Assembly: GCA_023248635.1 (NCBI GenBank)
Contig: JAHFED010000026.1
Coordinates: 1-49,710, forward strand
Direction of reading: 5' to 3'
Source: Myxococcales bacterium
Lineage (GTDB): Bacteria; Myxococcota; UBA727; VGSZ01
Length of the DNA: 49,710 nucleotides
In this document: in pieces, positions 1,737-49,220 of the stretch
Numbering within the stretch: the stretch's first letter is position 1
Layout: each line of letters opens with the position of its first letter
Notes under the pieces: model-generated
Seen by the model: only the letters and a program-made list of their open reading frames with translations
Told to the model about the DNA's origin: nothing
The model's database searches: none
Translations under genes and position numbers: made by a program

Positions 1737-1919
1737 CGGAAGCCCCATTGTCATGGCGCCGCAAGGCCAGCGCTGAAAGTACATGAGGAACATATCGCCC
1801 CTCGGCTGGTAGGTGGTCCAAGCCCTGCCATCGGCCGGTCGTCGTAAACGAGGCCCATTTGCCCCCTTTGTCGTTGTTCTGGCGCACATCGGCGAACAGT
1901 CTCTGCGCCGAGGTGCCCC

Positions 1920-2513
1920 ATGTGTCGTCGCTCCTGGTTTTTCTGCGCCGTCCCCCTGCTCCTGCTCGCAACGGCCTTCGCTTGTCCGCCGATTTTGAAC
2001 GGTGGGCGAGAGGGTGAAGGAGAGGGCGACGACGGCGACGGGCCCGACGACGAAGGCGAAGGCGAAGGCGGCGAAGGAGAAGGCGAGGGCGGCGAAGGCG
2101 AGGGAGACGAAGGCGAGGGTGGCGAAGGCGAGGGAGGCGAAGGCGAGGGAGGCGAAGGAGAAGAGGGCGAAGGAGATGAGGGCGAAGGCGAGGGTGGCGA
2201 AGGAGAAGCCCAGCCCCCGGAGTGCGCCGAAGGGCTGCCGCCGCCGTCGGATCCCTGCATCCCCTTCTGCGGCAACGAGAAGGGTGTGGGCCAGCCGTGC
2301 ACCGAGGGCGGCGGTGAGTGCAACGGGTTCATTGGCACCGGGGCGGGCTTTTGCACCATCGACTTCGACGACGGCGCCATCGCCTTCTGCACCAAGCCCT
2401 GCCGCGAGGACGACCAGTGCGGCAGCAACTCCGTGTGTCGCGGAGACCCGGACGATCCGGGTGGAAGCAAGGGCTGCATCCCGGTGGCTTGCGCGCCGGA
2501 CGACGAGCCCTAA
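1920..2513 (+). CDS. Lipoprotein with long acidic Gly-Glu spacer and Cys-rich C-terminal domain
   Basis: Product of 197 residues. The N-terminus is a hydrophobic signal peptide with lipobox AFAC (Cys22). Residues about 30-100 are almost only Gly, Glu and Asp, encoded by imperfect GGCGAAGGAGAA-type tandem DNA (about 2005-2210). The last ~97 residues hold about 12 cysteines in spaced pairs, including CTKPCREDDQCGSNSVC. This resembles the small disulfide-rich modules found in many myxobacterial secreted proteins. The likely topology is a lipid anchor, a flexible acidic stalk and a compact disulfide-bonded head. No enzymatic motif was seen and the function is unknown. The stop is directly followed by a possible short repeat (2514-2650) and a hairpin terminator. 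Confidence 0.82.
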   Translation: MCRRSWFFCAVPLLLLATAFACPPILNGGREGEGEGDDGDGPDDEGEGEGGEGEGEGGEGEGDEGEGGEGEGGEGEGGEGEEGEGDEGEGEGGEGEAQPPECAEGLPPPSDPCIPFCGNEKGVGQPCTEGGGECNGFIGTGAGFCTIDFDDGAIAFCTKPCREDDQCGSNSVCRGDPDDPGGSKGCIPVACAPDDEP

Positions 2514-2650
2514 CAGGCTGCTGAGAAGTCGCTTCGCGCTTTTCCAACGCCCCGTTTCAGTGTTGCTGGAGGGTCTGTCGCCAGACGCTCCCCCGACGGG
2601 CGGAGCCCGATCGGGGCCCCCCGACCCAAGACGGCCTTTTCAGCCTGCTC
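2514..2650. repeat. Possible short inverted-repeat element downstream of the lipoprotein gene
   Basis: This non-coding stretch begins right after the stop at 2513. Its left end reads CAGGCTGCTGAGAAG, and the reverse complement of its right end reads GCAGGCTGAAAAGG. It also holds an internal imperfect hairpin (GGAG-GTCTG/CAGAC-CTCC type, about 2572-2598) reminiscent of the hairpin in the MITE copies. Only one copy occurs in the window and no target duplication could be established, so mobility is a guess. Confidence 0.25.
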
Positions 2651-2679
2651 AAGAAAAGGCCGCCCTCAGGGGCGGCCTT
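2651..2679 (-). terminator. Rho-independent terminator downstream of tRNA-Phe
   Basis: A perfect 10-bp stem (2656-2665 with 2670-2679, GGCCGCCC core) encloses the tetraloop TCAG. Read on the minus strand it is followed by TTTTCTTG, about 20 bases after the tRNA 3' end. It could also stop rightward transcription from the lipoprotein gene, though the plus-strand tail is only pyrimidine-rich. Confidence 0.8.
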
Positions 2680-2696
2680 CTCTCTCATTCCATGGG

Positions 2697-2772
2697 TGGT
2701 GCCCAGAGCCGGAATCGAACCAGCGACACGCGGATTTTCAGTCCACTGCTCTACCAGCTGAGCTATCTGGGC
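2697..2772 (-). tRNA. tRNA-Phe (anticodon GAA)
   Basis: A full cloverleaf can be drawn on the minus strand. The acceptor arm is GCCCAGA/TCTGGGC. The D arm is GCTC/GAGC. The anticodon stem GTGGA/TCCGC has loop CTGAAAA, giving anticodon GAA. The variable loop is GTGTC and the T arm GCTGG/CCGGC has loop TTCGATT. Discriminator A and an encoded CCA occupy 2697-2700. The gene is followed by a strong hairpin terminator. No integrase or duplicated tRNA 3' end was seen nearby. Confidence 0.97.
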
Positions 2773-2785
2773 CGAAGCGCCGCGG

Positions 2786-2814
2786 ACTGTGCCCATCGCC
2801 CTCGTCGTCGTCAA
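2786..2814 (-). promoter_or_regulatory. Candidate promoter of tRNA-Phe
   Basis: On the minus strand, TTGACG (2814-2809) is separated by 17 bases from CACAGT (2791-2786), with the mature tRNA 5' end 13 bases further. The -35 box matches sigma-70 consensus at 5 of 6 positions, but the -10 box only at 3 of 6. It is proposed from position and spacing. Confidence 0.4.
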
Positions 2815-2913
2815 GAGCAAACTCAGCCGAGTGTCGCGCGACCCCGTGGCCGAAGAAGCTCGGCGCCCGCTGCGCTTGTGGTGGATCGGTGTCTCTGCCA
2901 CCAAGTCCCATGA

Positions 2914-3116
2914 TCCCGCGTTCGCTTGATGTTCGACCGCGTTCCGAGATGACGCGGGATGATGCGCGTGAAGCGCGCCCGCGGAACGCGGAGTTGGTGG
3001 GCCCCGCTTCCGGCTCCGCCGGCGCGGGGGGAGGTCTGCACCAGACCTCCCAGAAGAGCATCCCCGACGGCGATGAACGAGACCGCTCCGCGGTCGAAGT
3101 TCAGCGAGACCGGGGA
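2914..3116 (+). mobile_element. MITE-like element, copy 1 (full length, 203 bp)
   Basis: Non-autonomous element without a transposase gene. Its ends TCCC...GGGGA form 28-bp imperfect terminal inverted repeats (19 of 28 positions match, including a perfect CTTCGACCGCG-type inner block of 8). It is flanked by the direct repeat TGA (2911-2913 and 3117-3119). Inside are a left subterminal hairpin (ATCCCGCGT/ACGCGGGAT), a perfect 10-bp hairpin around GGTCTGCACCAGACC, and GACCGC-TCC-GCGGTC near the right end. It is closely similar to 15259-15460, and its right part to 11604-11724. The last base of the element plus the duplicated TG form the ATG of the next gene. TNA target duplications are known for some IS5-family groups, so an IS5-like transposase elsewhere in the genome is a reasonable guess. 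Confidence 0.85.
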
Positions 3117-4318
3117 TGAGCTCGGGCCTGCGTGGCTTTCCCATCACCACCGCCGCGCGGGCCCTGCTGGTGACCGGGGCCGAGATGGCCCAGGTCGCCG
3201 TCGCCTTCGAGGTCTACGATCACACGCGCGATCCCCTGAGTCTCGGCATCCTCGGCCTCGCCCAGTTTCTGCCGGTCCTGTTCTTTGCCGTCCCTGCTGG
3301 ACAAGTCGCTGACCGCTTCCCGCGCAAGACGACGACGCTGATTGCTTTGACTGGTCTGACTACTGCGTTGTTTGCCATTTTATGGATCGATCGTCATGAT
3401 GTATATTTTGTATATGGATTAATGTTCGTGCTGGGCACACTGCGCGCCTTTCTCGGCCCGGCACTGGGGGCGATGTTGGCTTCGTTGATTCCACCCGAAG
3501 CGGCCAGCCGCTACTCAGCCATCAACTCGATGCTATTCTGCATTGCAGCCATCGTAGGACCGTCGATCGGCGGTGTTCTTATTTCTGCTGTGTCGGCGGA
3601 TTTCGTCTACCTTGTCTCTGGCTTCATGGCCGCGATTTCAACAGCCTTGATGAGCTGCGCGCGCGCACCGGCCGCGGAGGCCGGCCTCAAGGTCAAGGTG
3701 TCCTTCGCGACGGCGCTCGATGGGTTGCGCTTCGTTTGGGGCCAGCCCGTGCTCTTCTCGGCCATCGCGATGGATTTCGTCGCCGTCTTTCTGGGCGGGA
3801 TCACGGCGCTGCTTCCCATCTTCGCCGCCGACGTGCTGCAGGTGGGGGCCCCGGGCCTGGGGGTGTTGAGGGCGGCCCCCTCGGTCGGTGCTGGGATCAT
3901 GGCCTTGTGGTTGACCCTGCGACCGGTGCGAAGGCGAGCGGGGATTTCTCTGCTCGTCTGCGTCGCGATCTTTGGTCTGGCCACCATCGTCTTTGGGGTG
4001 TCGACGTCGTTTCCTTTGTCCCTGGCGATGCTCGCGGTGCTGGGCGCCGCCGACATGGTGAGCGTGGTGGTGCGCAGCGCCCTGCTGCAGGTGCTGGTCC
4101 CTTCCGAGTGGCGCGGTCGCGTGTCGGCGGTGAACGCGGTGTTCATCGGCGCCTCCAATGAGTTGGGCGAAATGGAATCTGGCGCCGCCGCCAAGCTCAT
4201 CGGACCCGTGGCCGCCGTCGTCGTCGGAGGCGTCGGCACCGTCGTCGTCGTCTTGGCCGTGCTCTGGGCGGTCCCGGCCTTGGGGAAGATCGACTCCCTC
4301 GACACGCCGCCGAAATAG
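3116..4318 (+). CDS. MFS transporter (EntS/multidrug-exporter-like)
   Basis: Inner-membrane major facilitator of 400 residues, about the family's normal size, with roughly 10-12 hydrophobic segments. The N-terminal half has the loop 2-3 signature AGQVADRFPRK, a version of the MFS motif GxxADRxxRR. VAFEVYDHTRDPLSLGILG resembles the first-helix region of the enterobactin exporter-like/MFS_3 group. The substrate cannot be read from sequence. The start ATG lies exactly at the MITE/target-duplication junction and no good Shine-Dalgarno is visible, because the MITE occupies the whole leader. The native upstream region may therefore be displaced, or the first residues altered. Bases about 3336-3427 form an AT-rich patch, unlike the flanking codons. 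The next gene starts 42 bases downstream on the same strand. Confidence 0.88.
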   Translation: MSSGLRGFPITTAARALLVTGAEMAQVAVAFEVYDHTRDPLSLGILGLAQFLPVLFFAVPAGQVADRFPRKTTTLIALTGLTTALFAILWIDRHDVYFVYGLMFVLGTLRAFLGPALGAMLASLIPPEAASRYSAINSMLFCIAAIVGPSIGGVLISAVSADFVYLVSGFMAAISTALMSCARAPAAEAGLKVKVSFATALDGLRFVWGQPVLFSAIAMDFVAVFLGGITALLPIFAADVLQVGAPGLGVLRAAPSVGAGIMALWLTLRPVRRRAGISLLVCVAIFGLATIVFGVSTSFPLSLAMLAVLGAADMVSVVVRSALLQVLVPSEWRGRVSAVNAVFIGASNELGEMESGAAAKLIGPVAAVVVGGVGTVVVVLAVLWAVPALGKIDSLDTPPK

Positions 4319-9577: not shown

Positions 9578-11224
9578 ATGATCAGCCTCGACAACATCAG
9601 CAAGCAATACGGCCGCCAAATCCTCTTCATGGAGGCGTCGGCGACTGTGCAACGTGGGGAGAAGATCGGCCTCGTGGGCCCAAACGGCGCCGGCAAGACC
9701 ACGGTGTTTCGGCTCATCACCGGTGAAGAAGAAGCCGACGGCGGCCAGGTCACCGTCGAACGCAACGTCAACGTGGGCTACTTCTCCCAAGACGTCGGCG
9801 AAATGAGCGGCATGACCGTGGTGTCGGCGGTGCTCGAGGGCGCTGGACCCGTCGCGTCGATCATTGCCGACATGCGCCGCATCGAAGACGCCCTCGCCGA
9901 TCCCGAGCGCGGCGACGAGATGGAGAAGCTCTGCGACCAGCTCGGCGACGCCCAACAGAAGTTCGAGGCCGTCGGCGGCTACGCCCTGGAAGCCAAAGCC
10001 AAAGATATCTTATATGGTCTCGGATTTGCCGAATCGGTCATCAACGGTGACGTCGGCGATCTCTCGGGCGGTTGGAAAATGCGCGTGGCCCTGGGGCGCA
10101 TCCTGCTGCAAGAGCCCGAGCTCATGCTGCTCGACGAACCGACCAACCACCTCGACGTCGAATCCATCATCTGGCTGGAGCAGTGGCTGGCCGGCACCGA
10201 CAGCGCCATCCTCATGACCTCCCACGATCGCGAGTTCATGAACCGGGTCGTGAAAAAGGTGATCGAGATCGATAGCGGCGAACTGACGACGTACACTGGA
10301 GACCTCGACTTCTACGAATCGCAAAAGGCCATCCGCATCCGCGAGCAGCAGGCCCAGTTCGACCGGCAGCAGAAGATGCTCGAGAAAGAGGAGCGCTTCA
10401 TCGCCCGCTTCAAGGCCCGCGCGAGCCACGCCGCTCAAGTGCAGAGCCGCATCAAGAAGCTCGACAAGATCGAAAAGCTCGAGCCGCCGCGCAGCTTTCA
10501 GCGCATCGAGTTCGACTTCAAGAAACCCGCCCGCTCGGGCGACGACGTCATCCATTTGAACCAATGCAAAAAGGGGTTCAACGGACGAAAGGTCGTCGAC
10601 GTCGATCTCCGCATTCGGCGCAAGGAACGTTGGTGCGTGATGGGGGCCAACGGCGCGGGCAAAAGCACCCTGTTGAAGATGATCACCGGCAACCTCGCCC
10701 CCGACGACGGCGGCGTCACCATCGGCGCGAGCGTCAAGCTCGGCTACTTCGCCCAGCACGCCATGGAACTCTTGCACGAAGACCTGAGCGTGTTCGAGAC
10801 GCTGCAAGCCGACTTCCCCACGGCGACGCAGGGCACCTTGCGCACCCTGGCCGGCTGCTTCGGCTTCCCCGGCGACGACGTCGAAAAGTCCTGCCGCGTG
10901 TTGTCGGGCGGCGAAAAAGCCCGGCTGGTGTTGGCGCGCATGCTCTTCGATCCACCCAACCTGCTGGTGCTCGATGAGCCCACCAACCACCTCGACGTCA
11001 CGACCAAAGACCTGCTCGTCGAGGTGCTGGCGGCCTTCGAGGGCACCATGATCTTCGTCAGCCACGATCGCCGCTTTCTCAGCGCCCTGAGCAACCGGGT
11101 GCTCGAGCTCAACCCCGAGGGTCCCCGCGTCTACGGCGGCGGCTACGGCGAATACGTGACGGCCTCGGGCCACGAAGCACCCGGGTTGCGCGCGGCCACG
11201 CCACCGAAGAAGAAGCCCGGATGA
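9578..11224 (+). CDS. ABC-F family ATPase (ribosome-associated type)
   Basis: Soluble protein of 548 residues with two ABC domains and no membrane segments, as in the ABC-F class (EttA/YbiT/Uup/YheS) that acts on the ribosome E site. The first domain has Walker A GPNGAGKTT, signature LSGGWKMR and LLDEPTNHLD. The second has GANGAGKST, LSGGEKARL and LVLDEPTNHLD. Between them is the charged linker (about residues 240-305, rich in Arg/Lys/Gln) that reaches the peptidyl-transferase region in this class. The arm is short, so EttA versus YbiT identity cannot be settled by eye. The last 4 bases overlap the PilZ gene (ATGA). Confidence 0.94.
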   Translation: MISLDNISKQYGRQILFMEASATVQRGEKIGLVGPNGAGKTTVFRLITGEEEADGGQVTVERNVNVGYFSQDVGEMSGMTVVSAVLEGAGPVASIIADMRRIEDALADPERGDEMEKLCDQLGDAQQKFEAVGGYALEAKAKDILYGLGFAESVINGDVGDLSGGWKMRVALGRILLQEPELMLLDEPTNHLDVESIIWLEQWLAGTDSAILMTSHDREFMNRVVKKVIEIDSGELTTYTGDLDFYESQKAIRIREQQAQFDRQQKMLEKEERFIARFKARASHAAQVQSRIKKLDKIEKLEPPRSFQRIEFDFKKPARSGDDVIHLNQCKKGFNGRKVVDVDLRIRRKERWCVMGANGAGKSTLLKMITGNLAPDDGGVTIGASVKLGYFAQHAMELLHEDLSVFETLQADFPTATQGTLRTLAGCFGFPGDDVEKSCRVLSGGEKARLVLARMLFDPPNLLVLDEPTNHLDVTTKDLLVEVLAAFEGTMIFVSHDRRFLSALSNRVLELNPEGPRVYGGGYGEYVTASGHEAPGLRAATPPKKKPG

Positions 11225-12243: not shown

Positions 12244-13455
12244 TCAGCGGCGTCCCTGGTGCAGGCGATGGCGCTTCCCGTGTGCAGCGCTGCGCTCGGG
12301 CACGAGCTCGGTACCGACCCGGAGGCGCTCCAAGTACTTCGTATAGGCGAAGGTGCGATCCCTCTTTCTGCCCGTGGTCTCTTGGAGAACGCCGACGTCG
12401 ACGAGGGTCTGCACGGCCTTGCTCGCGGTTGGCAGCGTGGTCTGCAGGAGGGCTGCGACGCCGGCGACGTTGATCAGGGGATGGCGGGGCAACAGGGCGA
12501 AGAGGCGCAGCGCGCTCACGGAGGTGGCATCGGCAGCAAGCACGCGCGCCTGGTCCCTCGTCGTCAAGGCGAAGAGCTCCTTCGCCGTCGTCGCCGCTTC
12601 GGTGGCGATGGTGGCGACGCCGTCGACGAAGAAGCGGGTCCATGCCTCCCAGTCGCCGCGCACGCGCACGGCGGTGAGGAGGCGGTAGTAGTCCTCGCGG
12701 TTCCGCTTGAAGTGCAAGCTCAGGTAGAGGAGCGGGTGGGTGAGCAAGCCCCAGTGCTCAAGGAGCAGGGCGACGAGCAAACGCCCCAGACGTCCGTTGC
12801 CATCGAGATAGGGGTGAATGGTCTCGAACTGCACGTGCATCAGGCCGGCGCGCACGATGGGCGGCAAGGTGTCGTCGGCGTGAAGGTACTTCTCGACGTC
12901 GGAGAGGAGGGCGCCCACCAGATGAGGCGGGGGCGGCACGAACACCGCGTCGCTGGGCCGGGCGCCGCCGATCCAGTTCTGGGTGCGGCGCAGCTCGCCC
13001 GCTTTGTCGGCGCCGCGTACGCCCTTCATCAGTCGCTTGTGCGCCTCGTTGAAGAGCCGCACCGAGATCGGCACACCCTTCGCGCTGGAGAGCTGCCTGC
13101 GGGCCCACCTCATGGCGTCGAGATAATTGCAGATCTCTTCGACGTCGCGGGCGCCACCAAGGGTGTGCTCGGCCTCGAAGGCGAACAGATCGACGAGCGT
13201 CGCCTGTGTGCCCTCGATCTGCGATGAGACGACGGCCTCCTTGCGCACGAAGGCATAGACGAACCAGTCGACGTCGGGGACCATGGCGGCCGCGAGGTTG
13301 AGCAGGCGCAGGGCCTCCTCAGCCTTGGCCACACGCTCCGCGAGATCGTCGTTCAGCGCCAGGGGCGGGTCCTGCGGCGGCAGGGCGGACGGCACGAAGG
13401 CCCGCACGTTCTCGCCGAGCGCAGAAGTGACCTCGTAGCGACCGGTGGTGCGCAT
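12244..13455 (-). CDS. Fic family AMP-transferase-like protein with N-terminal inhibitory motif and C-terminal winged helix
   Basis: Cytoplasmic protein of 403 residues. The Fic core motif HPYLDGNGRLGR (catalytic His214) fits HxFx(D/E)GNGRxxR with Tyr in place of Phe. Before it, SSQIEG (Ser77-Glu81) matches the (S/T)xxxE(G/N) inhibitory helix in the N-terminal part, which marks class II Fic proteins whose NTP-transfer is self-restrained. The C-terminal ~80 residues (ALLPRHPLINVAGVAALLQTTLPTASKAVQTLVDVGVL) look like a winged helix-turn-helix, as in the common standalone Fic/DUF4172-type architecture. These enzymes usually AMPylate proteins; the target is unknown. The start at 13455 has GGGAGG 5 bases upstream. 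No separate antitoxin gene is adjacent. Confidence 0.92.
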   Translation of the reverse strand: MRTTGRYEVTSALGENVRAFVPSALPPQDPPLALNDDLAERVAKAEEALRLLNLAAAMVPDVDWFVYAFVRKEAVVSSQIEGTQATLVDLFAFEAEHTLGGARDVEEICNYLDAMRWARRQLSSAKGVPISVRLFNEAHKRLMKGVRGADKAGELRRTQNWIGGARPSDAVFVPPPPHLVGALLSDVEKYLHADDTLPPIVRAGLMHVQFETIHPYLDGNGRLGRLLVALLLEHWGLLTHPLLYLSLHFKRNREDYYRLLTAVRVRGDWEAWTRFFVDGVATIATEAATTAKELFALTTRDQARVLAADATSVSALRLFALLPRHPLINVAGVAALLQTTLPTASKAVQTLVDVGVLQETTGRKRDRTFAYTKYLERLRVGTELVPERSAAHGKRHRLHQGRR

Positions 13456-13618
13456 CTGGCCTCCCAAAGAAGTCTTTTGGAACGGAGGGCGAAAAGAAAG
13501 CGGTCTTTCTTAGTGCCCATTGGCGGCGTCGACCCGGGCGCGCTCGGCACATGCTCCACTCCGCGGCTGTGGCGGAGCGACGAGCGCCCCACCGCCCGGC
13601 GGCCTACGCTGGGCCTGC

Positions 13619-15460: not shown

Positions 15461-16837
15461 TTAGAAAGTCTGGCCGATATTAATATACACTGAAGTGCCG
15501 AAATTCTCGACCGCGCTGGTGGCGATGTCAATGCGCAGCATGAAATTCTCGGCCCAGTGCAACAAGAGCGCGCCGCCGAAGCCGACCGGGGGTTGTCCCG
15601 CCAGCTTGGGGTCGAGGATTTCTTCGCCGACGACGCCGGCGTCGACGAAGGCGTTGGTGGAGGCTGCGAATTTCTGGCCGAACATTTCCCATTCGACGAA
15701 GCGCCAGCGCAGCTCGTTTTGGGCGTAGAGCTTGAGCTTGCCCACGTAGCGCTGCACGCGAATGCCGCGACCCATCTCGCTGCCGCCGAAGGAGAGGTAG
15801 TCGATGAAGCCGCCAGGCCGCACGATCTCTTGAATGGGGGGGTCGCCGACGACGGCGTCGACGACGACCCGGGAGGCCAGGGTCAAGCGCAGCGGGGCTT
15901 CGCCGTCGAGCAGGGGCACGAAGGTGCGCACCGTGGCGTTGGCGCCGCCCCAGGTCCAGGTGGATCCCCAAAAGGGGGCCGCACCGCGCACCGAGGTCTC
16001 GGCCCACACGCCGCGGCGCGGTGAAGGCTCGTTGTCGCGGGTGTCGTACATGATGCCGGCCTGCAGCACGCTGGCGAAGCCCGGCTCACCCTGGGGAAAG
16101 TCGTCGGCGTAGAAGGATCCAGGATAGGGTGAAAGATCAGCTTCGCCGTCTTTGTCGTCGTCGGCCCAGGTGCCCGGAATGTAGGCGCTGCCCCGCCATC
16201 CACCGAAGATCTCGACGCGGCGGGGGAGGGGATTGAGGGCCCAGCGTCCCTGCAAGGTCGCGTAGGGGTTCATGAAGCGAATCGCATAATAATGCCTGAG
16301 AAAGTCGTCTCGTTCGATGCCTTTGAGGCCCGCATCGTCGGCGGCAGCTTCGGCGACGACGGGGTCGCAGGTGACCGCCATGCCCACGCCGCAGTAGTTC
16401 TGCGAGAGCGACTGCGACCACCCCAAGCGCGCGGTGAGGCGCAGCGGCAGATCGGCGACGTTGAGGAAGTCGAAGCCGAGGTAGTGGTCTTGCACCAGCT
16501 TCGAGGAAAAGATGATCTGCGCCGAGACCGCCAAGCGGTAGGGGTTGGTGACGCCGTCGTGGAAGTAGACCGAGCCGACGGCGCCGAAGACGATGCCGTT
16601 GTCCTGATCGAAGGCCAGCGCGGGGATGCCGCCGATGTTCCAGGTCCAGGGGGCAGGGGGTTTGTGGACGTCGACGGCCGCTGGTTTTTCGGTGCTCGGC
16701 GCAGACGGGGCCGGAGCCTCCACCTCCTCGGCGGGTGCGACGACGTCGAGGGGAGCGGCCTCGGGGACAGGCTGGGCAGGCAGCGGCGAGGGCTCGGCAA
16801 GGGCGAGCACCAATGCGACAGCGGGGAAGGCGATCAT
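15461..16837 (-). CDS. Outer-membrane beta-barrel protein (Omp85/BamA-like surface antigen family)
   Basis: Exported protein of 458 residues. A signal peptide (MIAFPAVALVLALA) is followed by a Pro/Ala/Glu-rich linker to about residue 60. The rest is amphipathic beta-strand sequence ending in the C-terminal Phe (YINIGQTF) expected of BAM substrates. GIMYDTRDNEPSPRRGVWAET resembles the conserved D(T/R)RDN-P-G strand of Omp85-type barrels, and FGGSEMGRGIRVQRY resembles the (V/I)RG(Y/F) lid-lock region. There are no visible POTRA repeats, so it is not BamA itself. A lipid- or substrate-secretion barrel of the surface-antigen family is likely. Its stop codon lies in the MITE target duplication, so the last codons may have been altered. 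It is divergent from the kinase gene, 34 bases away. Confidence 0.82.
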   Translation of the reverse strand: MIAFPAVALVLALAEPSPLPAQPVPEAAPLDVVAPAEEVEAPAPSAPSTEKPAAVDVHKPPAPWTWNIGGIPALAFDQDNGIVFGAVGSVYFHDGVTNPYRLAVSAQIIFSSKLVQDHYLGFDFLNVADLPLRLTARLGWSQSLSQNYCGVGMAVTCDPVVAEAAADDAGLKGIERDDFLRHYYAIRFMNPYATLQGRWALNPLPRRVEIFGGWRGSAYIPGTWADDDKDGEADLSPYPGSFYADDFPQGEPGFASVLQAGIMYDTRDNEPSPRRGVWAETSVRGAAPFWGSTWTWGGANATVRTFVPLLDGEAPLRLTLASRVVVDAVVGDPPIQEIVRPGGFIDYLSFGGSEMGRGIRVQRYVGKLKLYAQNELRWRFVEWEMFGQKFAASTNAFVDAGVVGEEILDPKLAGQPPVGFGGALLLHWAENFMLRIDIATSAVENFGTSVYINIGQTF

Positions 16838-16871
16838 GCGAGGGAAGTTAACACTGGACTAGGTTTCGCTC

Positions 16872-19800
16872 GTGTCTGCCTGGGCCCTTCTGATCGCGGT
16901 GAGCGGCGTCTGCGCGGCGAGCAGCGATGCCCCTGGGGTCGTCGACGGCGTCGCCCGCCTGACCACCCTCGATGTTGCCCAGGATCTCGCCGGCACGTGG
17001 AAAATCCGCTTCGACGACGACGACGCCTACCGCAGCCCGGGTTACGACGACGACGACTGGGAGCGCATCAAGGTGCCGCTGGGGATTGGCCTGCAGGGGC
17101 ACGCCGAGTTCAGCGGCGTGTTTTGGTACCGCTTTCGAGTCGAGCTTCCGCCCCGTGCCGGTGACAAAGCCGCGCGCCTGCTGGGCGTGCGGCTGGGGCA
17201 GCTGGACTCCGCTGTCGAGGTCTTCATCGACGGCGTCTTCGTCGGCGGGCGCGGCCATGTCCCCCGCGACAGCCACGACCCCGGGGTGCTCGCGACGAAC
17301 ATGCACGGCGTCGATCCCGTGCCCCAAGGCGCCGACGACGACGGAACCCTGGTCATTGCCTTGCGCGGGTGGCGCGATCCGCTGCGTGCCGATTCCAAGC
17401 CGGGCCGCGGCGGCGTCACCCACGCCCCCCTGGAGATCGGCGACGTGCGCGAGCTGGCCAACGCCGAGGTGACCGCCGACCTCGACGACGTCGCCTTGTG
17501 CGCCATCTTCCTGGTCACTGGCTTCTACCACCTGCACCTGTGGCGACGACGTCGGGAGCAGGTCTCGTATTTCTGGTTCGGCGTCTTTGCGATCGAGGTC
17601 TCGGGCTTCATCCTCTTCGCTCGTAACATATCCTATTCTGTAATTAATGCCTACTTAATTCACGAAAAATTATGGTACCTTTTCCTCTTCCTGGCGTTCC
17701 CGACCTTCATCCAATTTCTCTGGCCCTTCCTCCAGACCAAGATCGGCCGGGGCTGGCGCGTGGTACAGGGCTTCAGCTTGGCGTACGGACTGGTCGCGAT
17801 GTTGTGGCCGTCCGTGTGGTTCGTGCACAAGTTCATCGTCTGCTGGGAGCTGCTCGTCTTGCTCCCCGTGAGCCTCGGCATGGTCGCCCTGGTGGTGCGC
17901 CGGGCACGAGCGCGAGACCCCGAGGCCCGAACGGTGCTGGTCGGAGTGCTGGCGCTGTTGGCGACCTGCCTCAGCAACTTCGGCGTCGAGCGCAACGTCT
18001 TCCAGCTCCCCGAGCTCACGAACATCGCGTTCGGCGTCTTCGTGCTGACCATGGCTGCATCCCAATCGAACCGGTTCACGCGGGTCTATGGAGAGCTGGA
18101 CCACAAAAATGCCGAGCTCTTGCGCATGGACAAGCTCAAGGACGAGTTCCTCGCCAACACCAGCCATGAGCTGCGCACCCCCCTGAACGGCATCCTTGGC
18201 ATCACCGAGTCCCTGGTGGACGGCGCTGCCGGCGTGCAGAGCCCGGCCAGCCTCGAAAACCTGCAGATGATCATGACGAGTGGTCAGCGCCTCTCCTCCC
18301 TGATCAATGATATCTTGGATTTCTCGAAACTGCGAGGAGGTAAAGTAAGCATGCAGCTCACGCCCCTCGACCTCCGTCCGGCCGTCGACGTCGTCGTGCG
18401 CCTCCTGACCCCCCTCGCTCGCAAGAAGGGGCTCATGCTCGACAGCCGCATGCCCCGCGACCTGCCGCTGGTGCTCGCCGACGATGCGCGCTTGCAGCAG
18501 GTGCTGATCAACCTTGTCGGCAACGCCATCAAGTTCACCGACACCGGGAGCATCAGCATCCAAGGCGCCGTCGACGGAGCGTTCGTCTCCTGCACGGTCA
18601 CCGACACGGGCCCCGGCATCGCCGAAAGAGACCACGCGCGCATCTTCGACGCCTTCGAGCAAGGCGACGGGACCACCGAGCGCGTGCACGGCGGTACCGG
18701 GCTCGGGCTGTCGATCACCCGCAAGCTCGTCGAGCTGCAGGGCGGTCGCGTCGGACTGGTCTCGGCTCCGGGCCAGGGCTCGAGCTTCACGGTCGCCTTG
18801 CCCACGGCCACGCTGGAGCAGCTGTCCAACAGCCGGGCGGGCAGCGACGGCGTCCTGCCTAATTCAGCGATCACCCCTGCGCTCCCAGCGGGCCCCGACG
18901 AAGAAGCGATGGCGGAATACCCCGTCGGCCCAAACGCCGCGGCACCATCGACGGCGCCAGCCAGCGAAGTCGCGGACAGGCCGATCGTCAGCGAGGTGAA
19001 GAAGCGTTACCGCGTCCTGCTCGTCGACGACGAACCCATCAACGTGCGGGTGCTGGAGAACCATCTGTCCTCGAGCTTCGACATCGCCCGCGCCGAGAGC
19101 GGGGCCGCGGCCCTGCGCCTTCTCACCGACGGCTTCAAGCCCGATCTGGTGCTGCTCGACGTCATGATGCCCCGCATGTCGGGCTACGAAGTGTGCCGCC
19201 ACATCCGCGCGCGCTTCTCTGCCAGCGAGGTCCCGGTCGTGCTGGTGACGGCCAAGGACGGCATCGCCGACATCGTCACCGGCTTCGATGCCGGCGCCAA
19301 CGATTACCTGACCAAGCCCGTGGCCAAGCTCGAGCTCTTGGCCCGCATCGGGGTCCACCTGCAGGTGGCCAAGATGAACGAGGCCACGTCCCGCTTCGTC
19401 CCCTTCGAGTTTCTCTCGATGCTGGGGAAAAAGAGCCTCATCGACGTCGAACGCGGGGATCAGGTCCAGCGCGAGATGAGCGTTTTGTTTTCCGATATTC
19501 GCAGCTTCACGACGATCACCGAGAAGGCGTCGCCGGCCGAGAGCTTCCGCTTGGTCAACGAATATCTGGGCCACATGGAGCCCTCGATCAAAAACCACGG
19601 CGGCTTCGTCGACTGCTTCATCGGCGACGCCATCATGGCCCTCTTCGACGGTGAAGGCGGAGGCGGTGCCGTCGGTGCCGTCGCCGCGGGGGTCGCCATG
19701 CAACACGCTCTCCCGGCCTTCAACGCCGAGCGCGCGGTGTTGGGGCTGCCCCTGGTGGCCATCGGCGTCGGCGTCAACACCGGGCTGCTGACCTGCGGGA

Positions 19801-20252
19801 CCATGGGCGGGCGCTTCCATGTGAAGTGCACGGTCATCGGCGACTCCGTCAACACCGCCAGTCGCGTCGAAGGCATGACCAAGATGTATGGCGCGCGTCT
19901 GCTGATCGGCGAAGCCACCCGCGACGCCTTGCCCCCTGGGCGCTTCACCCTGCGCGTGGCCGATCGCGTGACCGCAAAGGGGAAAAACGTCGCAACCACG
20001 ATCTACGAGGTGCTCGACGCCGACGTCGACGACGTGCAAGAGCGCAAGCGGGCTTCTTTGGATCGCTACCAAACTGCCCTCGCTGCCTACGCCGCCCGAG
20101 AGTTCGCCGATGCCGGCGCCCTGCTCGACGAGCTCGCCCAGATCGATCCTGCCGATCAGCTGGTCGCGCTGTATCGTGATCGCTGCCGCGCCTTCGTGGC
20201 CGCCCCCCCACCCAGCGATTGGGACGGCGTCGTCAGGCTCGAAACCAAGTGA
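16872..20252 (+). CDS. Hybrid sensor: extracytoplasmic jelly-roll + 7TM + histidine kinase + REC + class III nucleotide cyclase
   Basis: Inner-membrane signalling protein of 1126 residues. Order: signal peptide (1-15); beta-sandwich similar to glycoside-hydrolase-2 sugar-binding modules (about 30-190, DDDDWERIKVP and FWYRFRVELP); seven hydrophobic helices (about 205-405, 7TMR-DISM-like); HisKA with His432 in NTSHELRTPLNG; HATPase (about 530-650, NLVGNAIKF, DTGPGI, GTGLGL); REC with Asp763 (LLDVMMPRMSG); class III cyclase (about 868-1050) with metal aspartates Asp875 and Asp919; and a TPR-like helical tail. The cyclase keeps IGDSVNTASRVEG, with the ribose Asn and transition-state Arg. The residue four before Asp919, often Lys in ATP cyclases, is Cys915, so substrate choice is uncertain. 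It probably couples a periplasmic ligand to phosphorelay and cAMP-like output. The start is GTG. Confidence 0.93.
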   Translation: MSAWALLIAVSGVCAASSDAPGVVDGVARLTTLDVAQDLAGTWKIRFDDDDAYRSPGYDDDDWERIKVPLGIGLQGHAEFSGVFWYRFRVELPPRAGDKAARLLGVRLGQLDSAVEVFIDGVFVGGRGHVPRDSHDPGVLATNMHGVDPVPQGADDDGTLVIALRGWRDPLRADSKPGRGGVTHAPLEIGDVRELANAEVTADLDDVALCAIFLVTGFYHLHLWRRRREQVSYFWFGVFAIEVSGFILFARNISYSVINAYLIHEKLWYLFLFLAFPTFIQFLWPFLQTKIGRGWRVVQGFSLAYGLVAMLWPSVWFVHKFIVCWELLVLLPVSLGMVALVVRRARARDPEARTVLVGVLALLATCLSNFGVERNVFQLPELTNIAFGVFVLTMAASQSNRFTRVYGELDHKNAELLRMDKLKDEFLANTSHELRTPLNGILGITESLVDGAAGVQSPASLENLQMIMTSGQRLSSLINDILDFSKLRGGKVSMQLTPLDLRPAVDVVVRLLTPLARKKGLMLDSRMPRDLPLVLADDARLQQVLINLVGNAIKFTDTGSISIQGAVDGAFVSCTVTDTGPGIAERDHARIFDAFEQGDGTTERVHGGTGLGLSITRKLVELQGGRVGLVSAPGQGSSFTVALPTATLEQLSNSRAGSDGVLPNSAITPALPAGPDEEAMAEYPVGPNAAAPSTAPASEVADRPIVSEVKKRYRVLLVDDEPINVRVLENHLSSSFDIARAESGAAALRLLTDGFKPDLVLLDVMMPRMSGYEVCRHIRARFSASEVPVVLVTAKDGIADIVTGFDAGANDYLTKPVAKLELLARIGVHLQVAKMNEATSRFVPFEFLSMLGKKSLIDVERGDQVQREMSVLFSDIRSFTTITEKASPAESFRLVNEYLGHMEPSIKNHGGFVDCFIGDAIMALFDGEGGGGAVGAVAAGVAMQHALPAFNAERAVLGLPLVAIGVGVNTGLLTCGTMGGRFHVKCTVIGDSVNTASRVEGMTKMYGARLLIGEATRDALPPGRFTLRVADRVTAKGKNVATTIYEVLDADVDDVQERKRASLDRYQTALAAYAAREFADAGALLDELAQIDPADQLVALYRDRCRAFVAAPPPSDWDGVVRLETK

Positions 20253-20267
20253 TGGAGCAGGCCCGAC

Positions 20268-21707
20268 ATGAGCACTGGCAAGCAAGTCGTTCGCGGCACC
20301 GCCATTTCCCTGGTGGGTCAGCTCGCGACCCAGATGCTCCGCTTCGCCGGCAACATCGTGCTCGCCCGTTTCCTCCCTGAAGAGGCCTTCGGCATCAACG
20401 CCATGGTGTTCGCGCTGACGACGGGGCTGTGGCTCATGTCCGACGTCGGCATCGGCGCCAGCGTGATCCGCAGCAAGCGGGACGACGACGACTTCATCAA
20501 CACCGCCTGGACCCTCTCGGTGGTTCGCGGCGTCATGCTCTTTGGCCTTGGCACCCTGGCCGGCCCCCCTGCCGCTTGGTTTTACAAAGAGCCCCAACTG
20601 ATCTGGTTGCTGCCCCTGTGCTCGACGATGGTGCTGCTGCTGGCAGCGGAGTCGCAGGCCTACTGGGTGCAGCAGCGGCGCATGGCGGTCGGTCGCATCA
20701 TGTCCATCGACGTCGCTTCGCAGGCCATCGCCCTCGCCGTCGCCATCCCGGTCGCCATCTACACCCGGCACGTCATCGCCCTGGCCTGCGCCGCCGTCGT
20801 GTCGGCCATCGTGAAGTTCCTCCTCACCCACCTGATCCTGCCCGGTCCCCGGATGAAATTTCGTTGGGACAAGCTGGCGATCAAAGAGATCTTTGCTTTC
20901 GGGCAATGGATCTTTCTATCTACGCTCTTTTCTTTTCTTGCCACGCGCTGGGACGTCTTTTCTCTGGGTCGGCTCGAGGGCTTCGCTCTTCTGGGCGTGT
21001 ATGGTTTGGCGGGGCAGATCACGAGCGTTCCGAACCAAATCTCGATTCAGGTGACCAATACGGTTTTGACACCGGTGTTGGCCGACGCTTTTCGCGGTTC
21101 CGCCGAAGAGCTGCGCACGCGATTGACCCAGGCCCGGCGCGCCTACCTGCCGGCGGCGGCGCTGCTCTTTTTGGGAGCGGCCACGACAGCGCCGGCGTTC
21201 TTTCAGCTCGCTTACAAACAGAACTTCCACGCTGCGGGTCCCATGGCCCAGCTGCTGATGTTGCCGGCCTGGCTGGCGTTTTTGCAGGAGGCGTCGTCGC
21301 GCGCCTTGCTCGCCGCCGGGGATGGGCGCGGGCTGGCCTTGAGCAACGCCGTCAAAGTCATTGGCACCATCATCGCGACCCTGGTGGGCTTCGAGCTTTG
21401 GGGGTTCTGGGGCTTCGTCGGCGGCTGCGCCGTCGGTGCCGTCATCGGCGTCGTCATCGTCGGTTGGCGGCTGCGGGAGCACGGCGTGACGGTGCTGGGG
21501 GGGGACCTGATCGCCACGCTGGCGTTTCTGCTCGTCGGCGGCGCTGCCTGCGCCATCCCCGTGTGGGCGGAACCGCTGGTGGGCGTGAACGCGGCCTGGC
21601 TGACCCTGATTTCCTGCGTGGTGCTTTGTGGGCCCCTGGCGGTGATCGTCTTTCGGCGCGCGGCCGAAGGACGGGGGCTCGCGCGGGCGGCCACCAGCGA
21701 GGCCTGA
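20268..21707 (+). CDS. Polysaccharide/lipopolysaccharide flippase (Wzx/WzxC-like, MVF superfamily)
   Basis: Integral membrane protein of 479 residues with about 12-14 helices. The N-terminus (VVRGTAISLVGQLATQMLRFAGNIVLARFLPEEAFGINAMV) is diagnostic of the polysaccharide biosynthesis flippase family, which moves undecaprenyl-linked oligosaccharides across the inner membrane. QWIFLSTLFSFLATRWDVFSLGRL and the GxYGLAGQI segment match WzxC-type members. No glycosyltransferases are adjacent, so the partner pathway is not shown. It begins 15 bases after the hybrid kinase stop and is probably cotranscribed with it. Bases about 20898-21075 are an AT-rich patch. Confidence 0.92.
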   Translation: MSTGKQVVRGTAISLVGQLATQMLRFAGNIVLARFLPEEAFGINAMVFALTTGLWLMSDVGIGASVIRSKRDDDDFINTAWTLSVVRGVMLFGLGTLAGPPAAWFYKEPQLIWLLPLCSTMVLLLAAESQAYWVQQRRMAVGRIMSIDVASQAIALAVAIPVAIYTRHVIALACAAVVSAIVKFLLTHLILPGPRMKFRWDKLAIKEIFAFGQWIFLSTLFSFLATRWDVFSLGRLEGFALLGVYGLAGQITSVPNQISIQVTNTVLTPVLADAFRGSAEELRTRLTQARRAYLPAAALLFLGAATTAPAFFQLAYKQNFHAAGPMAQLLMLPAWLAFLQEASSRALLAAGDGRGLALSNAVKVIGTIIATLVGFELWGFWGFVGGCAVGAVIGVVIVGWRLREHGVTVLGGDLIATLAFLLVGGAACAIPVWAEPLVGVNAAWLTLISCVVLCGPLAVIVFRRAAEGRGLARAATSEA

Positions 21708-21760
21708 CGACGACGGCGTCGGCGGGCCTGGTTCACACGTTCAGCTCTCCAACCTGAGCT

Positions 21761-23092
21761 TCACGGACTGATGCCAGATTCCGCTGTGGAATCGCTCTTC
21801 TTGAAGGCAATCCACAATACAAACGAAAAGATCATGATCGCGATGTAGATGCCAAACAGATGTGGTTTGGTCCAGATCATCGATGCCAGTGCAACGATGG
21901 TCAGCACGAGAGAAAGGGCGGGGACGAGCGGATAACCCGGTGTCTTGTAAGGCCGGGGCAAGTCCGGCTCCATCTTTCTCAGGCGAAAGAGCGCGATGGT
22001 CGAGAATAAATAGAGAGTGAGTGCACCAAAAATCGCCAGCAAAATGATGTCGCCGGTCTTGCCGGTCAGCAGAACCAACAGCCCAACGAAGAGGTTGAGG
22101 GCCAAGGCGATCATCGGCGTGCCGCGCTTCTCGTCGAGGCGGCCGATCTTGCGCGGGAGAAAGCCACAGCGCCCCATCTCGAGCAGGGCGCGCGATGCGG
22201 CGAGCAGAATGCCGTGGAAGCTCGCGACCAGCCCCAGCAGGCCGATGCCGGTCAGCAGCTTGAACATGGGATGGCCGGCGCCAACCACATGACGAATGGC
22301 CAGCGGCAAGGGCGAATCCGACTGCGCGCCGTCGACGCCGTTGACGAAGAGCACCGCCCGCCAGCCGGCGACGCCGACGGAGCCAAAGAGCGCGATCATC
22401 GCCAGCACGACCAGAGTGCCCATCGCCGACAAGAAGCCCTTGGGAAGGTCGCGCTGCGGATCTTTGGCTTCCTCGGCGATGTTCGCGATGCCTTCGATGG
22501 CCAAATAGAACCAGAGCGCGAAGGGCAACGCGAGGAAGGCCCCGCCCCAACCGTTGGGGAGCGCGTCGGTGGAGAAGGTCTCCCACTGAAACGCGGGCAG
22601 GCAGACGCAACCAAAGACCATGAGCTCGATGACGGCGATGATGGTGATGATGAGCTCGAAGCCCGCCGAGATCTTGGTGCCCCACATGTTGATCGCGGTG
22701 AAGAGAAGATAGGCGCAGAAGGCGACGACGTTGACGTCGAGGCCGAAGCCCGTGTTCATGTAGCTGCCGATGGAAAAGGCGATGGCGGGAGGCGCGAGCA
22801 CGTACTCGACGAGCTGGGCCATGCCGACCACGAAGGCCGTCTTTTCGCCGAAGGCCCGCCGAGCGTAGACGAAGGCGCCGCCGGCTTTGGGCAGGGCGCA
22901 GGAGAGCTCGGCATAGCCCAGCACGAAGGTCACATAAAGCACGGTGGCGACGAGGGTGGCCACGAGCATGCCCCAGGGGCCGCCCTGCTCGAGACCGTAG
23001 TTCCAACCGAAGTAGCTGCCCGAGATGACGTAGCCGACGCCGAGTCCCCAGATCATGAGTGGACCAAGCGTGCGCTGCAGTTGTTGAGACAT
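21761..23092 (-). CDS. eat: APC-family permease, ethanolamine permease-like
   Basis: Inner-membrane transporter of 443 residues with 12 hydrophobic segments. The N-terminus LQRTLGPLMIWGLGVGYVISGSYFGWNYGL closely follows the ethanolamine permease subfamily of the amino acid-polyamine-organocation superfamily. ELSCALPKAGGAFVYARRAFG and the EGIANIAEEAKDPQRDLPKG helix-6 motif support APC membership. Start ATG 23092 is chosen by family N-terminus; AAGGAGG lies unusually close (one base). The frame is open upstream to 23257 without similarity. No ethanolamine ammonia-lyase genes are nearby. Bases 21770-22070 use AT-rich codons. Confidence 0.9.
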   Translation of the reverse strand: MSQQLQRTLGPLMIWGLGVGYVISGSYFGWNYGLEQGGPWGMLVATLVATVLYVTFVLGYAELSCALPKAGGAFVYARRAFGEKTAFVVGMAQLVEYVLAPPAIAFSIGSYMNTGFGLDVNVVAFCAYLLFTAINMWGTKISAGFELIITIIAVIELMVFGCVCLPAFQWETFSTDALPNGWGGAFLALPFALWFYLAIEGIANIAEEAKDPQRDLPKGFLSAMGTLVVLAMIALFGSVGVAGWRAVLFVNGVDGAQSDSPLPLAIRHVVGAGHPMFKLLTGIGLLGLVASFHGILLAASRALLEMGRCGFLPRKIGRLDEKRGTPMIALALNLFVGLLVLLTGKTGDIILLAIFGALTLYLFSTIALFRLRKMEPDLPRPYKTPGYPLVPALSLVLTIVALASMIWTKPHLFGIYIAIMIFSFVLWIAFKKSDSTAESGISP

Positions 23093-23150
23093 GCCTCCTT
23101 CTCCGTCGGGGGCCGCAGCGTGTCCAGTCGCCACCAGGGTAGGGTGGCCC

Positions 23151-23468
23151 ATGAAGAAGAGCTTGCAGCGCGTGGCCCTGTTGTTCGCCGTCGGCGGCTT
23201 CGTCGGCGACGTCGTGGCCATGGCCTTGGGACCGCGGGCCATCGCCTGGTACCACACGCCGGGATTGGGTCAGGCGCTCTGCCAGTGCGAGGACGTGACG
23301 CGCGAGACCGCGGCGTGGATCATCAAGCTGCAGCTCGTCGCCACAGTCGGCGGCGGAGCCCTCTTCGTCGTCGTCGGCGTGATCGGATCCCTGGTGTGGC
23401 GCCGGCGCTCCCAGGCTGCGGCCTTGGCGCTGGTCAGCCCTTCGCCGCCGGCGGACTCCGGTGGATGA
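23151..23468 (+). CDS. Small two-helix membrane protein, unknown function
   Basis: Predicted 105-residue protein. An N-terminal helix (VALLFAVGGFVGDVVAMALG) is followed by a hydrophilic loop with CQCED and a second helix (LVATVGGGALFVVVGVIGSLVW), ending in a short Ser/Pro-rich tail. No family was recognised. The ATG is at 23151. Its 3' end overlaps the convergent gene at 23434 by 35 bases, and its promoter region is shared with the divergent permease. Confidence 0.6.
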   Translation: MKKSLQRVALLFAVGGFVGDVVAMALGPRAIAWYHTPGLGQALCQCEDVTRETAAWIIKLQLVATVGGGALFVVVGVIGSLVWRRRSQAAALALVSPSPPADSGG

Positions 23469-47681: not shown

Positions 47682-49220
47682 TCAGTGCCGCTTCTTGCGC
47701 CGCTCTTTGTCGTGCTGAGAGCGAGCGATGGAGCGCAACAGCACGACGGCCTCGCGCGCGGTGGGTCGCTCGGCTGGAGCCTTCCGCAAGAAGCGCCCCA
47801 CGGCATCGTCGACGCCAGCGGGGAGGCCGTCGACGATGGAGGAGGGCAGGCGCGCGCTGTTGTGCTGGTGCAAGCGGGCCAGGGCGGTGACGTCGGAGCC
47901 GATGAAGGGCAGCCCGCCGGTCACGAGGTGGTGGAGCATGACGCCGGCGGCATAGATGTCACTGGCCGGCGTGGCCTTGGGGTCCTCGAAGCGCTCCGGC
48001 GCCATGTGGCTCGGGGTGCCGACCAGCAGGTCGCCAGCGCTGGGATCGTCGACGCTGCAGGCGGCGCCGAAGTCGCAGAGCTTCACCACCGGCGGGTCCT
48101 CGGGGTCCTCGACGGACAGCAGCACGTTCAGCGCTTTGACGTCGCGGTGCACGACGCCGAAGCGGTGGGCCGCAGCGAGGGCGGCGCACACGTCGGCGGT
48201 GATGCCAAAGGCCAACGACACCGGGAGCAAGCGCTCGCGGGCCAGGCGCACGCGCACGGTCTCGCCCGTCAGCAGCTCCATCACGAGGAAGGGGTGGCCC
48301 TCGAGGGAGATGCCGTGGTCGACGGCGCGCACCGCGTTTCGGTGCCGAACCCGCGCGAGCAGCACGGCTTCGCGGGCCAAGCTTTCCCGAGCGGTTTCGC
48401 CGCGGCGCACGGGAGCGGCGTCGGGGTGCAGCAGCTTGATGGCGACGTCAGCATCGAGTCCGAGGTGACGTGCGCGCCAGACCGTTCCCATCTTGCCGGT
48501 GCCGATGGGGACATCGAGGCGATAGCGCCCGTCGAGCAGAAAACCGGGCTGGACCGGCGGCGGCACGGCGCCCACGAGCTTGCGGCTGAAGCCCTTGAGC
48601 CGCGCCAACAGCCCCGACGGCGACGTCGACTGCTCTGGCCCTGAGGGTTCCGTCGAAAACTCGGGGGGAATGCTCGGTGGAGACTTGAGCAGCTCGAGGG
48701 GAGGACCACGCAAGAAGGGAGGGACGCCGGACCCCGCCGGCGGGGTGGGCGAGCGGGGGAGGGGGGGCGCCCCGCGCGGCGGCGAGGGGGGAGCGACCTC
48801 GAGGAGCACCTGCTCTTCTCCCACCTCGACGGCCTCGGACCAGCCCGTCACCGCCGGCCGGAGGCGTCGTTCGATGCGAGCCCACAGCACGGGCAGGGAG
48901 AAGGGTTTGGTCACGTAGTCGTCGGCGCCCGCCGCCATCGCTGACACCACGGCGTCTGGATCGGACACCGCGGTCAACAGGATCACCGGCACGGGATTGC
49001 CCGTGGCGCGCACGGCCACCAGCACTTCAAAGCCGCCCATCTTGGGCATCATTTGGTCGAGCAGCACCAGGTCGACGTCGACGGCCTGGGCCATGCGCAA
49101 CCCCTGCTCGCCGTCTTCGGCCTCGCGCACCGCGCAGCCCTTCTTGCTCAGAAAGATGCGGAGCAACTCGCGGTTGCCGGCGTCGTCGTCGACGATGAGG
49201 ATGGTGCGTGGCGGATCCAC
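47682..49220 (-). CDS. Response-regulator receiver fused to Ser/Thr protein kinase
   Basis: Cytoplasmic protein of 512 residues. The N-terminal REC domain (1-125) has Asp55 (LLDQMMPKMGG), acidic DDD at 11-13 and Lys105 (TKP). A Pro/Ser-rich linker (about 140-225) leads to a eukaryotic-like kinase (about 230-505) with G-loop GTGKMGTVW, Lys262 (VAIKLL), HRD with Asp360 and DFG with Asp383. There are no sensor repeats or membrane helix at the C-terminus; KDKERRKKRH-type basic residues end it. A phosphorelay signal onto REC would gate Ser/Thr phosphorylation. Start GTG 49220. Seventy bases separate it from the upstream same-strand gene at 49290. Confidence 0.92.
   Translation of the reverse strand: MDPPRTILIVDDDAGNRELLRIFLSKKGCAVREAEDGEQGLRMAQAVDVDLVLLDQMMPKMGGFEVLVAVRATGNPVPVILLTAVSDPDAVVSAMAAGADDYVTKPFSLPVLWARIERRLRPAVTGWSEAVEVGEEQVLLEVAPPSPPRGAPPLPRSPTPPAGSGVPPFLRGPPLELLKSPPSIPPEFSTEPSGPEQSTSPSGLLARLKGFSRKLVGAVPPPVQPGFLLDGRYRLDVPIGTGKMGTVWRARHLGLDADVAIKLLHPDAAPVRRGETARESLAREAVLLARVRHRNAVRAVDHGISLEGHPFLVMELLTGETVRVRLARERLLPVSLAFGITADVCAALAAAHRFGVVHRDVKALNVLLSVEDPEDPPVVKLCDFGAACSVDDPSAGDLLVGTPSHMAPERFEDPKATPASDIYAAGVMLHHLVTGGLPFIGSDVTALARLHQHNSARLPSSIVDGLPAGVDDAVGRFLRKAPAERPTAREAVVLLRSIARSQHDKERRKKRH

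Follow-up and report, generated by a model that had tools for sequence, protein, structure and literature searches.

CyaC-type proteins of Arthrospira and Anabaena are single chains made up of a histidine kinase, a receiver and a class III cyclase; they have a GAF/PAS-type input, and the Lys that commonly helps to select ATP is present. In 7TMR-DISM receptors an extracellular DISMED1 or DISMED2 domain is common, though not universal. RetS and LadS, neither of which has a cyclase to our knowledge, comprise a periplasmic domain, a seven-helix region and a kinase. Both carry DISMED2, and for RetS, a 7TMR-DISM receptor, a carbohydrate-binding module and a response to mucin glycans are reported (PMC7695008). 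Here we describe a receptor gene of a Myxococcales bacterium (assembly GCA_023248635.1), which lies in a DNA stretch of 49,710 nucleotides (contig JAHFED010000026.1, positions 1 to 49,710; analysed at full length and called the window). Its product resembles CyaC in uniting kinase, receiver and class III cyclase in a single polypeptide, but differs by a 7TMR-DISM sensor and by Cys915 at the Lys position. With RetS and LadS it shares the order of periplasmic domain, seven-helix region and kinase, whereas its sensor is a jelly roll like that of glycoside hydrolase family 2 (GH2) without DISMED match, and a cyclase output is added. The protein is likely a hybrid histidine kinase of the 7TMR-DISM kind whose output, a class III nucleotidyl cyclase, is controlled by the receiver, the parts acting as a serial relay.

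The receptor is encoded by a single open reading frame without internal stop codons (Table 1), whose GC content by codon position (0.67/0.44/0.86) resembles that of the adjacent genes. Five Pfam domains, each above its curated cut-off, follow one another in the order 7TMR-DISM_7TM, HisKA, HATPase_c, Response_reg and Guanylate_cyc. In view of the Pfam E-values and of a full-length paralog with 59% identity, this architecture cannot be due to chance. A preliminary description of the locus had proposed five modules in this order in one protein, and Pfam, AlphaFold2 and the uninterrupted reading frame all agree with it; its numbering of Asp763, Asp875, Cys915 and Asp919 proved exact on inspection of the sequence.

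No Pfam domain, DISMED1 and DISMED2 included, was detected at 1e-3 in the N-terminus. An AlphaFold2 model of residues 1-420 (13-sequence alignment, mean pLDDT 80.6) has a beta domain (27-191) and, after it, seven helices (192-226, 231-250, 261-286, 293-311, 316-346, 350-373 and 383-419). Together with the PF07695 match at 208-394 (60.4 bits, cut-off 29) these helices place the protein among the 7TMR-DISM receptors. Among solved structures, VIA-align matched the sensor best to GH2 sugar-binding domains (6d50_A, Z 14.3, 141 aligned residues, root mean square deviation 3.1, 17% identity), Foldseek retrieved the sugar-binding domain of a family 2 glycosidase (6ed1_A, 2.9e-7), and phmmer matched residues 42-127 to the sialate O-acetylesterase 7kmm (E 4.5e-5). 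The sugar-binding-like periplasmic module of the preliminary description is thereby upheld as to its fold. The model supports a fold of the sugar-binding type, which by itself is no proof of sugar binding; the ligand is possibly a glycan or sugar. A GPCR-like match of the helical part (8iep_C, Z 13.7) lay near the level at which the tool warns of helical bundles and was left unused.

In the cytoplasmic part, His432 is the phospho-acceptor of HisKA, the HATPase boxes are present, and the receiver contains Asp763, Thr793 and Lys815, as in hybrid histidine kinases. Kinase, receiver and cyclase stand in the same order as in the CyaC type (Pfam). We infer the following course of signalling: a ligand, possibly a glycan or sugar, would bind the periplasmic GH2-type jelly roll, and the seven helices would relay the resulting change to the kinase. 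His432 would be phosphorylated and hand its phosphate to Asp763, and the receiver, by way of the helix 819-839, would set a cyclase homodimer and so alter synthesis of the messenger. The serial order is proposed because of the module order and because of CyaC, where activation depends on phosphotransfer: Kasahara and Ohmori (1999; a reference within PMC1183210) state in their title that phosphotransfer activates CyaC, and AphC purportedly phosphorylates and activates CyaC according to a review (PMC4284465).

The preliminary description had suggested two outputs in parallel, one ligand being turned into both phosphorelay and second messenger, so that the kinase would also phosphorylate separate partners while the cyclase makes its product. 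Hybrid kinases can also serve additional partners, and 119 places in the genome match parts of the receptor at E<=0.001, often in its kinase or receiver. An Hpt domain was, however, not found in the receptor by Pfam, nor were two-component domains found in the eight other surrounding genes tested, and the known layout of this kind is serial. We therefore did not retain two parallel outputs and consider them quite improbable; as CyaC carries kinase, receiver and cyclase in one chain, a serial relay within the molecule is the simpler assumption. Within the window, the closest receiver gene observed lies some 27 kb from the receptor (47682-49220, minus strand); its frame of 512 residues has a receiver-like start with 41% identity to the receiver part of our protein over residues 712-833.

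The cyclase domain carries the residues of a class III cyclase, namely Asp875 and Asp919 for metal binding and Asn994 and Arg998 for the transition state. The AlphaFold2 model of residues 705-1126 (14-sequence alignment, pLDDT 88.6) matches OaPAC (8qfg, Z 21.8), Cya2 (2w01, Z 21.4, 193 aligned residues, 34% identity), CyaB (3r5g, Z 20.7) and many receivers. By sequence, the guanylyl cyclase Cya2 is the closest solved cyclase; it differs by a Glu/Gly pair instead of Cys/Thr, by a CHASE2 sensor and, in the layout described for it, by the absence of kinase and receiver. When the sequence was aligned with solved chains, Cya2 had Glu opposite Cys915, and CyaB and the 6fht chimera had Lys; opposite Thr987, Cya2 had Gly and CyaB had Thr. 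The earlier statement that Cys replaces the ATP-selecting Lys is thus correct. The protein shows neither the Lys with Asp/Thr partner of ATP-specific adenylyl cyclases nor the Glu of guanylyl cyclases at the Lys position, and the uncertainty about its product that was voiced earlier is justified.

Cys915 is assigned to the base-selecting site since exchange of the aligned Glu switches the substrate of Cya2; the E488K variant acts as an adenylyl rather than a guanylyl cyclase (PMC5995499). In Ma1120 the K101E exchange lowered ATP turnover 20-fold, and GTP was converted better than by the wild type (PMC4215837). In Rv1900c a His is said to replace the transition-state Asn, and both activities are purported (PMC4886424). 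The second selecting site, Thr987, is intact in the receptor; Thr is accepted as a companion residue of Lys in the binding of ATP (PMC7384201). With Cys915/Thr987 instead of Lys/Thr, tight selection of ATP is probably lost. Based on Ma1120 K101E and Rv1900c, we take cyclic AMP (cAMP) made with relaxed specificity as the default reading, another product being possible; whether cAMP, cyclic GMP (cGMP), a mixture or something else is made is not readable from the sequence. The genome contains 35 places matching cyclic nucleotide (cNMP)-binding domains, which could serve as readers of a cyclic nucleotide. PycC, too, is described as joining the catalytic motifs of class III to different base-contact residues, and its pyrimidine-recognising residues are named (PMC11224242); it forms one half of the two-part cyclase and receptor defence system Pycsar (PMC11224242). 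In contrast to PycC, our protein is a membrane receptor, and the genes next to it encode an Omp85 protein and a flippase, not a cyclic-pyrimidine receptor-effector. A [WF]-x-G-V motif in the tail was rejected as a family mark: it occurs within the last 45 residues in 13/27 family frames and in 20/34 other cyclase frames, some of the counted frames being cut by contig ends.

The genome (6.53 Mb, 135 contigs) encodes two full-length paralogs, B (contig C49, 59% identity) and C (contig C41, 45%), in which the five Pfam domains recur in unchanged order. The Lys/Thr pair is Cys/Thr in the receptor, Asn/Thr in B and Ser/Gly in C. Altogether 16 class III domains were found in the genome, 11 of which have Lys at the selecting site; the remaining five are those of the receptor, B and C, a Glu/Gly domain (L079) and a poorly aligned domain with Gln (L091). 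L079 (C65:19414-19947, minus strand) has the same pair as Cya2 with D, D, N and R intact and is a candidate guanylyl cyclase. Between the receptor and B, identity is highest in DHp (75%), cyclase (72%) and receiver (71%), followed by CA (62%), sensor (53%), seven-helix region (51%), tail (48%) and linker (29%), which is the pattern of a cyclase domain under constraint. Ratios of non-synonymous to synonymous differences (NG86 pN/pS) for this pair were not used as evidence, pS being high in several domains. Between the receptor and C, the values are 62% for receiver and DHp, 56% for CA, 54% for the cyclase, 34% for the seven-helix region, 33% for the sensor and 26% for the tail, so that this pattern is weaker there.

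A catalytically dead cyclase, serving as a dimer or binding module while phosphotransfer is the real output, would fit the loss of a substrate-contact residue, the varied replacements as under relaxed constraint, and the lower identity to paralog C in the cyclase than in receiver and DHp. Against it, none of the three paralogs has lost the two metal-binding Asp residues, the Asn or the Arg, and the cyclase matches that of paralog B about as closely as receiver and DHp do. We regard a dead cyclase as unlikely, and a decayed remnant was likewise set aside given the kept catalytic residues and the identity to B. The cyclase is most likely active, since its metal and transition-state residues are retained and the domain is well conserved between receptor and B.

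Matches at E<=1e-150 were confined to the genome of origin (58 genomes searched, own included), and 28 of 195 genomes of the phylum gave a cyclase match at E<=1e-45; in both searches scoring took in up to 12 candidates per genome. The 36 phylum matches comprised 30 that became loci, one that is paralog C and five that were left out; a scan of a named genome collection contributed 69 loci. Among all candidates of the congeners G001 (93/93) and G002 (87/87) and 150 of the 187 of G003, only partial receptor matches and none of full length were found. Pfam was applied to 16 chosen relatives and to L099. The five domains occur in the same order in five of eight proteins scanned: paralogs B and C, L009 and L014 from metagenome-assembled genomes (MAGs) of Symploca, and L044 from a Calditrichia MAG. 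In the latter three, the seven-helix region, HisKA, HATPase_c, receiver and cyclase follow about 200 N-terminal residues, with DISMED2 in L044 and no Pfam match in L009 and L014; they differ from the receptor by a Lys/Thr instead of a Cys/Thr pair. The module layout is therefore not unique, the kinase-receiver-cyclase series of the CyaC type being long known. Among the open-access titles and abstract openings of the entries listed, neither a 7TMR-DISM kinase-receiver-cyclase fusion nor a form lacking the Lys appeared.

Other inputs and shorter arrangements were found as well. L012 and L027 combine Cache sensors with the kinase-receiver-cyclase set, L027 with an additional PAS domain. Among eight further proteins, 7TMR-DISM is fused directly to a cyclase in L048 (Plesiocystis), L098 and L100, while L107 consists of receiver and cyclase and L101 of cyclase and hemerythrin. 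L099 (1498-3600, minus strand), from G001 of the same genus, has 7TMR-DISM joined directly to a Gln/Gly cyclase, lacks kinase and receiver, and is 31% identical to the receptor over residues 30-416 of the N-terminal half and 42% over the cyclase part. As these direct fusions exist alongside hybrid kinases, this type of cyclase is employed both with a phosphorelay and in its absence. In L046 (5863-7284) a stand-alone gene encodes only receiver and cyclase of the Gly/Ser kind; L045 has a cyclase frame (456-1481) followed by a frame (1855-3495) with HATPase_c and a HisKA match just below cut-off, possibly a split version of the output seen here. L126 (1056-6419, plus strand, genome G067) is a frame of 1788 residues with protein kinase, AAA ATPase, GAF and Ser/Gly cyclase domains and a TPR match below cut-off.

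Several points weigh against the receptor being a serial relay with an active cyclase. The four direct fusions (L048, L098, L099, L100) have no kinase or receiver, which makes this pair dispensable for control by the seven-helix region. Compared with paralog C, the cyclase, although above sensor and seven-helix region, ranks below DHp, receiver and CA. A GH2-like fold by itself shows no ligand, the structure models are of monomers only, and we have seen no assay of a domain lacking the Lys in this clade, activity being deduced. Phosphotransfer, ligand and activity of the receptor are predictions.

Among 61 aligned cyclase domains, Lys is absent from ten, whereas D, D, N and R are present in 60, including all ten non-Lys rows; in the one remaining domain, L093, the Arg is replaced by Lys, and this row does not belong to the Lys-less ones. 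A tree was calculated from 58 of the 61 domains, with the two trait columns excluded and L086, L091 and L093 dropped as poorly aligned. Since most sequences stem from searches seeded with the receptor, the share of non-Lys rows is neither a survey nor a population frequency. The receptor falls into a clade of 27 rows (support 100/100), 19 with and eight without Lys; several deep branches of the tree are not resolved. Over the whole tree, L079 included, at least three changes at the Lys site are needed, and an approximately unbiased test did not reject one clade for the eight non-Lys rows (p-AU 0.315). The Lys-site codon is TGC in the receptor, AAC in B, AGC in C, L097 and L048, CAG in L099, and GGG in L045 and L046, the codons AAC, AGC and TGC being single steps apart. 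A single loss of Lys with later diversification is possible on these data. The five domains of the clade outside the paralog group carry Ser, Ser, Gly, Gly and Gln at this site, so that the pairs of Lys-less cyclases comprise Cys/Thr, Asn/Thr, Ser/Gly, Gln/Gly and Gly/Ser. Such cyclases occur in the phylum of the genome and also in contigs that bear the titles Plesiocystis and uncultured proteobacterium.

The cyclases of the paralog group may no longer make mainly cAMP but cGMP, a mixture or another cyclic nucleotide, and so form a signalling branch apart from cAMP. The replacement of Lys in three paralogs and five more domains of the clade, with D, D, N and R kept, points in this direction, as do the compatibility of the data with one common clade and the Ma1120 K101E variant, which lost ATP turnover and converted GTP better (PMC4215837), the new residue there being Glu and not Cys. 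Yet Glu, typical of guanylyl cyclases, occurs in none of the eight Lys-less domains, Thr987 is kept in the receptor and in B, though not in C, and the sampling was anchored on the receptor. We treat this departure from cAMP as a tentative alternative to the default of cAMP with relaxed specificity. The wider proposal, that the Lys-less cyclases are an old receptor-linked class III branch that has abandoned the usual pair and makes, as external ligands direct, a non-cAMP cyclic nucleotide or a mixture, is about as tentative, and we rather doubt it.

Table 1 Features of the receptor gene and of its two neighbours (positions in the window)
Feature	Residues	Position	Strand	Basis and remarks
Whole receptor gene	1126 aa, GTG start	16872-20252	+	Open reading frame, Pfam, GC by codon position
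Probable signal peptide	1-16	16872-16919	+	Read by eye; low-confidence model helix 2-15
Predicted periplasmic GH2-type jelly-roll sensor	27-191	16950-17444	+	AlphaFold2, structure matches, phmmer
Seven helices; 7TMR-DISM_7TM 208-394 (3e-16)	192-419	17445-18128	+	Pfam, AlphaFold2
HisKA (7.1e-18)	423-489	18138-18338	+	Pfam; His432 at 18165-18167
HATPase_c (1.8e-27), N, G1 and G2 boxes	537-646	18480-18809	+	Pfam
Variable linker	650-710	18819-19001	+	29% identity to paralog B, 42 aligned residues
Receiver, Response_reg (1.9e-26)	715-826	19014-19349	+	Pfam; Asp763 at 19158-19160, Thr793, Lys815
Predicted receiver-to-cyclase helix	819-839	19326-19388	+	Helix 115-135 of the 705-1126 model
Class III cyclase, Guanylate_cyc (4.5e-15)	867-1043	19470-20000	+	Pfam, alignments
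Cyclase residue	Asp875	19494-19496	+	
Cyclase residue	Cys915	19614-19616	+	
Cyclase residue	Asp919	19626-19628	+	
Cyclase residue	Thr987	19830-19832	+	
Cyclase residue	Asn994	19851-19853	+	
Cyclase residue	Arg998	19863-19865	+	
Helical C-terminal tail, W-D-G-V-V near end	1050-1126	20019-20249	+	705-1126 model
Omp85-family outer membrane protein, divergent, 34 bp away		15461-16837	-	Pfam
Polysacc_synt flippase, 15 bp downstream of receptor		20268-21707	+	Pfam

The receptor and the flippase gene may share a transcript because they lie on the same strand with a gap of 15 bp; a promoter scan of 16600-22000 gave 0 hits against 0.4 expected. This spacing would also suit a unit of receptor and flippase that co-evolved for control of envelope polysaccharide, and the preliminary description had proposed the flippase as a co-conserved target. 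Flippase orthologs with about 60% identity were found in the congeners G001 and G002, and 14001 bases around the G002 gene and the whole contig of 6993 bases in G001 were compared. Neither stretch contains a receptor gene, the G001 contig being short: seven of the eight other window genes tested, the receptor among them, had no match there at 1e-5. The eighth, an ABC protein (9578-11224), had two weak partial matches in G002 (30-37% over 62-168 residues), which could be expected of any ATPase cassette. Beside the paralogs, the tested genes belong to families other than those beside the receptor: a LOG-type lysine decarboxylase, a weak HpaP match below cut-off and a helicase at B, and radical SAM, haem-oxygenase-like and TMP synthase-like genes at C. 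Since the two genomes with a flippase ortholog have neither a full-length receptor match nor a receptor gene next to it, co-conservation did not hold up; the flippase was rejected as receptor partner on these neighbourhoods, and a co-evolved unit appears very improbable. The window further contains a Fic/DOC family protein with Fic_N (12244-13467, minus strand; Pfam) and a gene above the NCBIfam cut-off for ethanolamine permease (21761-23257, minus strand; 416 vs 382 bits).

The receptor thus adds one more protein to the 7TMR-DISM and CyaC-like kinds and is set apart as a variant by its Lys-less paralog group. The rules by which adenylyl and guanylyl cyclases are told apart rest on Lys or Glu at one position. 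The group described here has neither, keeps its catalytic residues, and shows three different residues at this position in three paralogs of one genome. Its Cys/Thr, Asn/Thr and Ser/Gly domains, next to cousins with Lys/Thr, offer a direct test of base selection in class III cyclases. In addition, the relatives in which 7TMR-DISM is joined directly to a cyclase, among them L099 with its similar sensor, allow relay-gated and directly gated cyclases to be compared.

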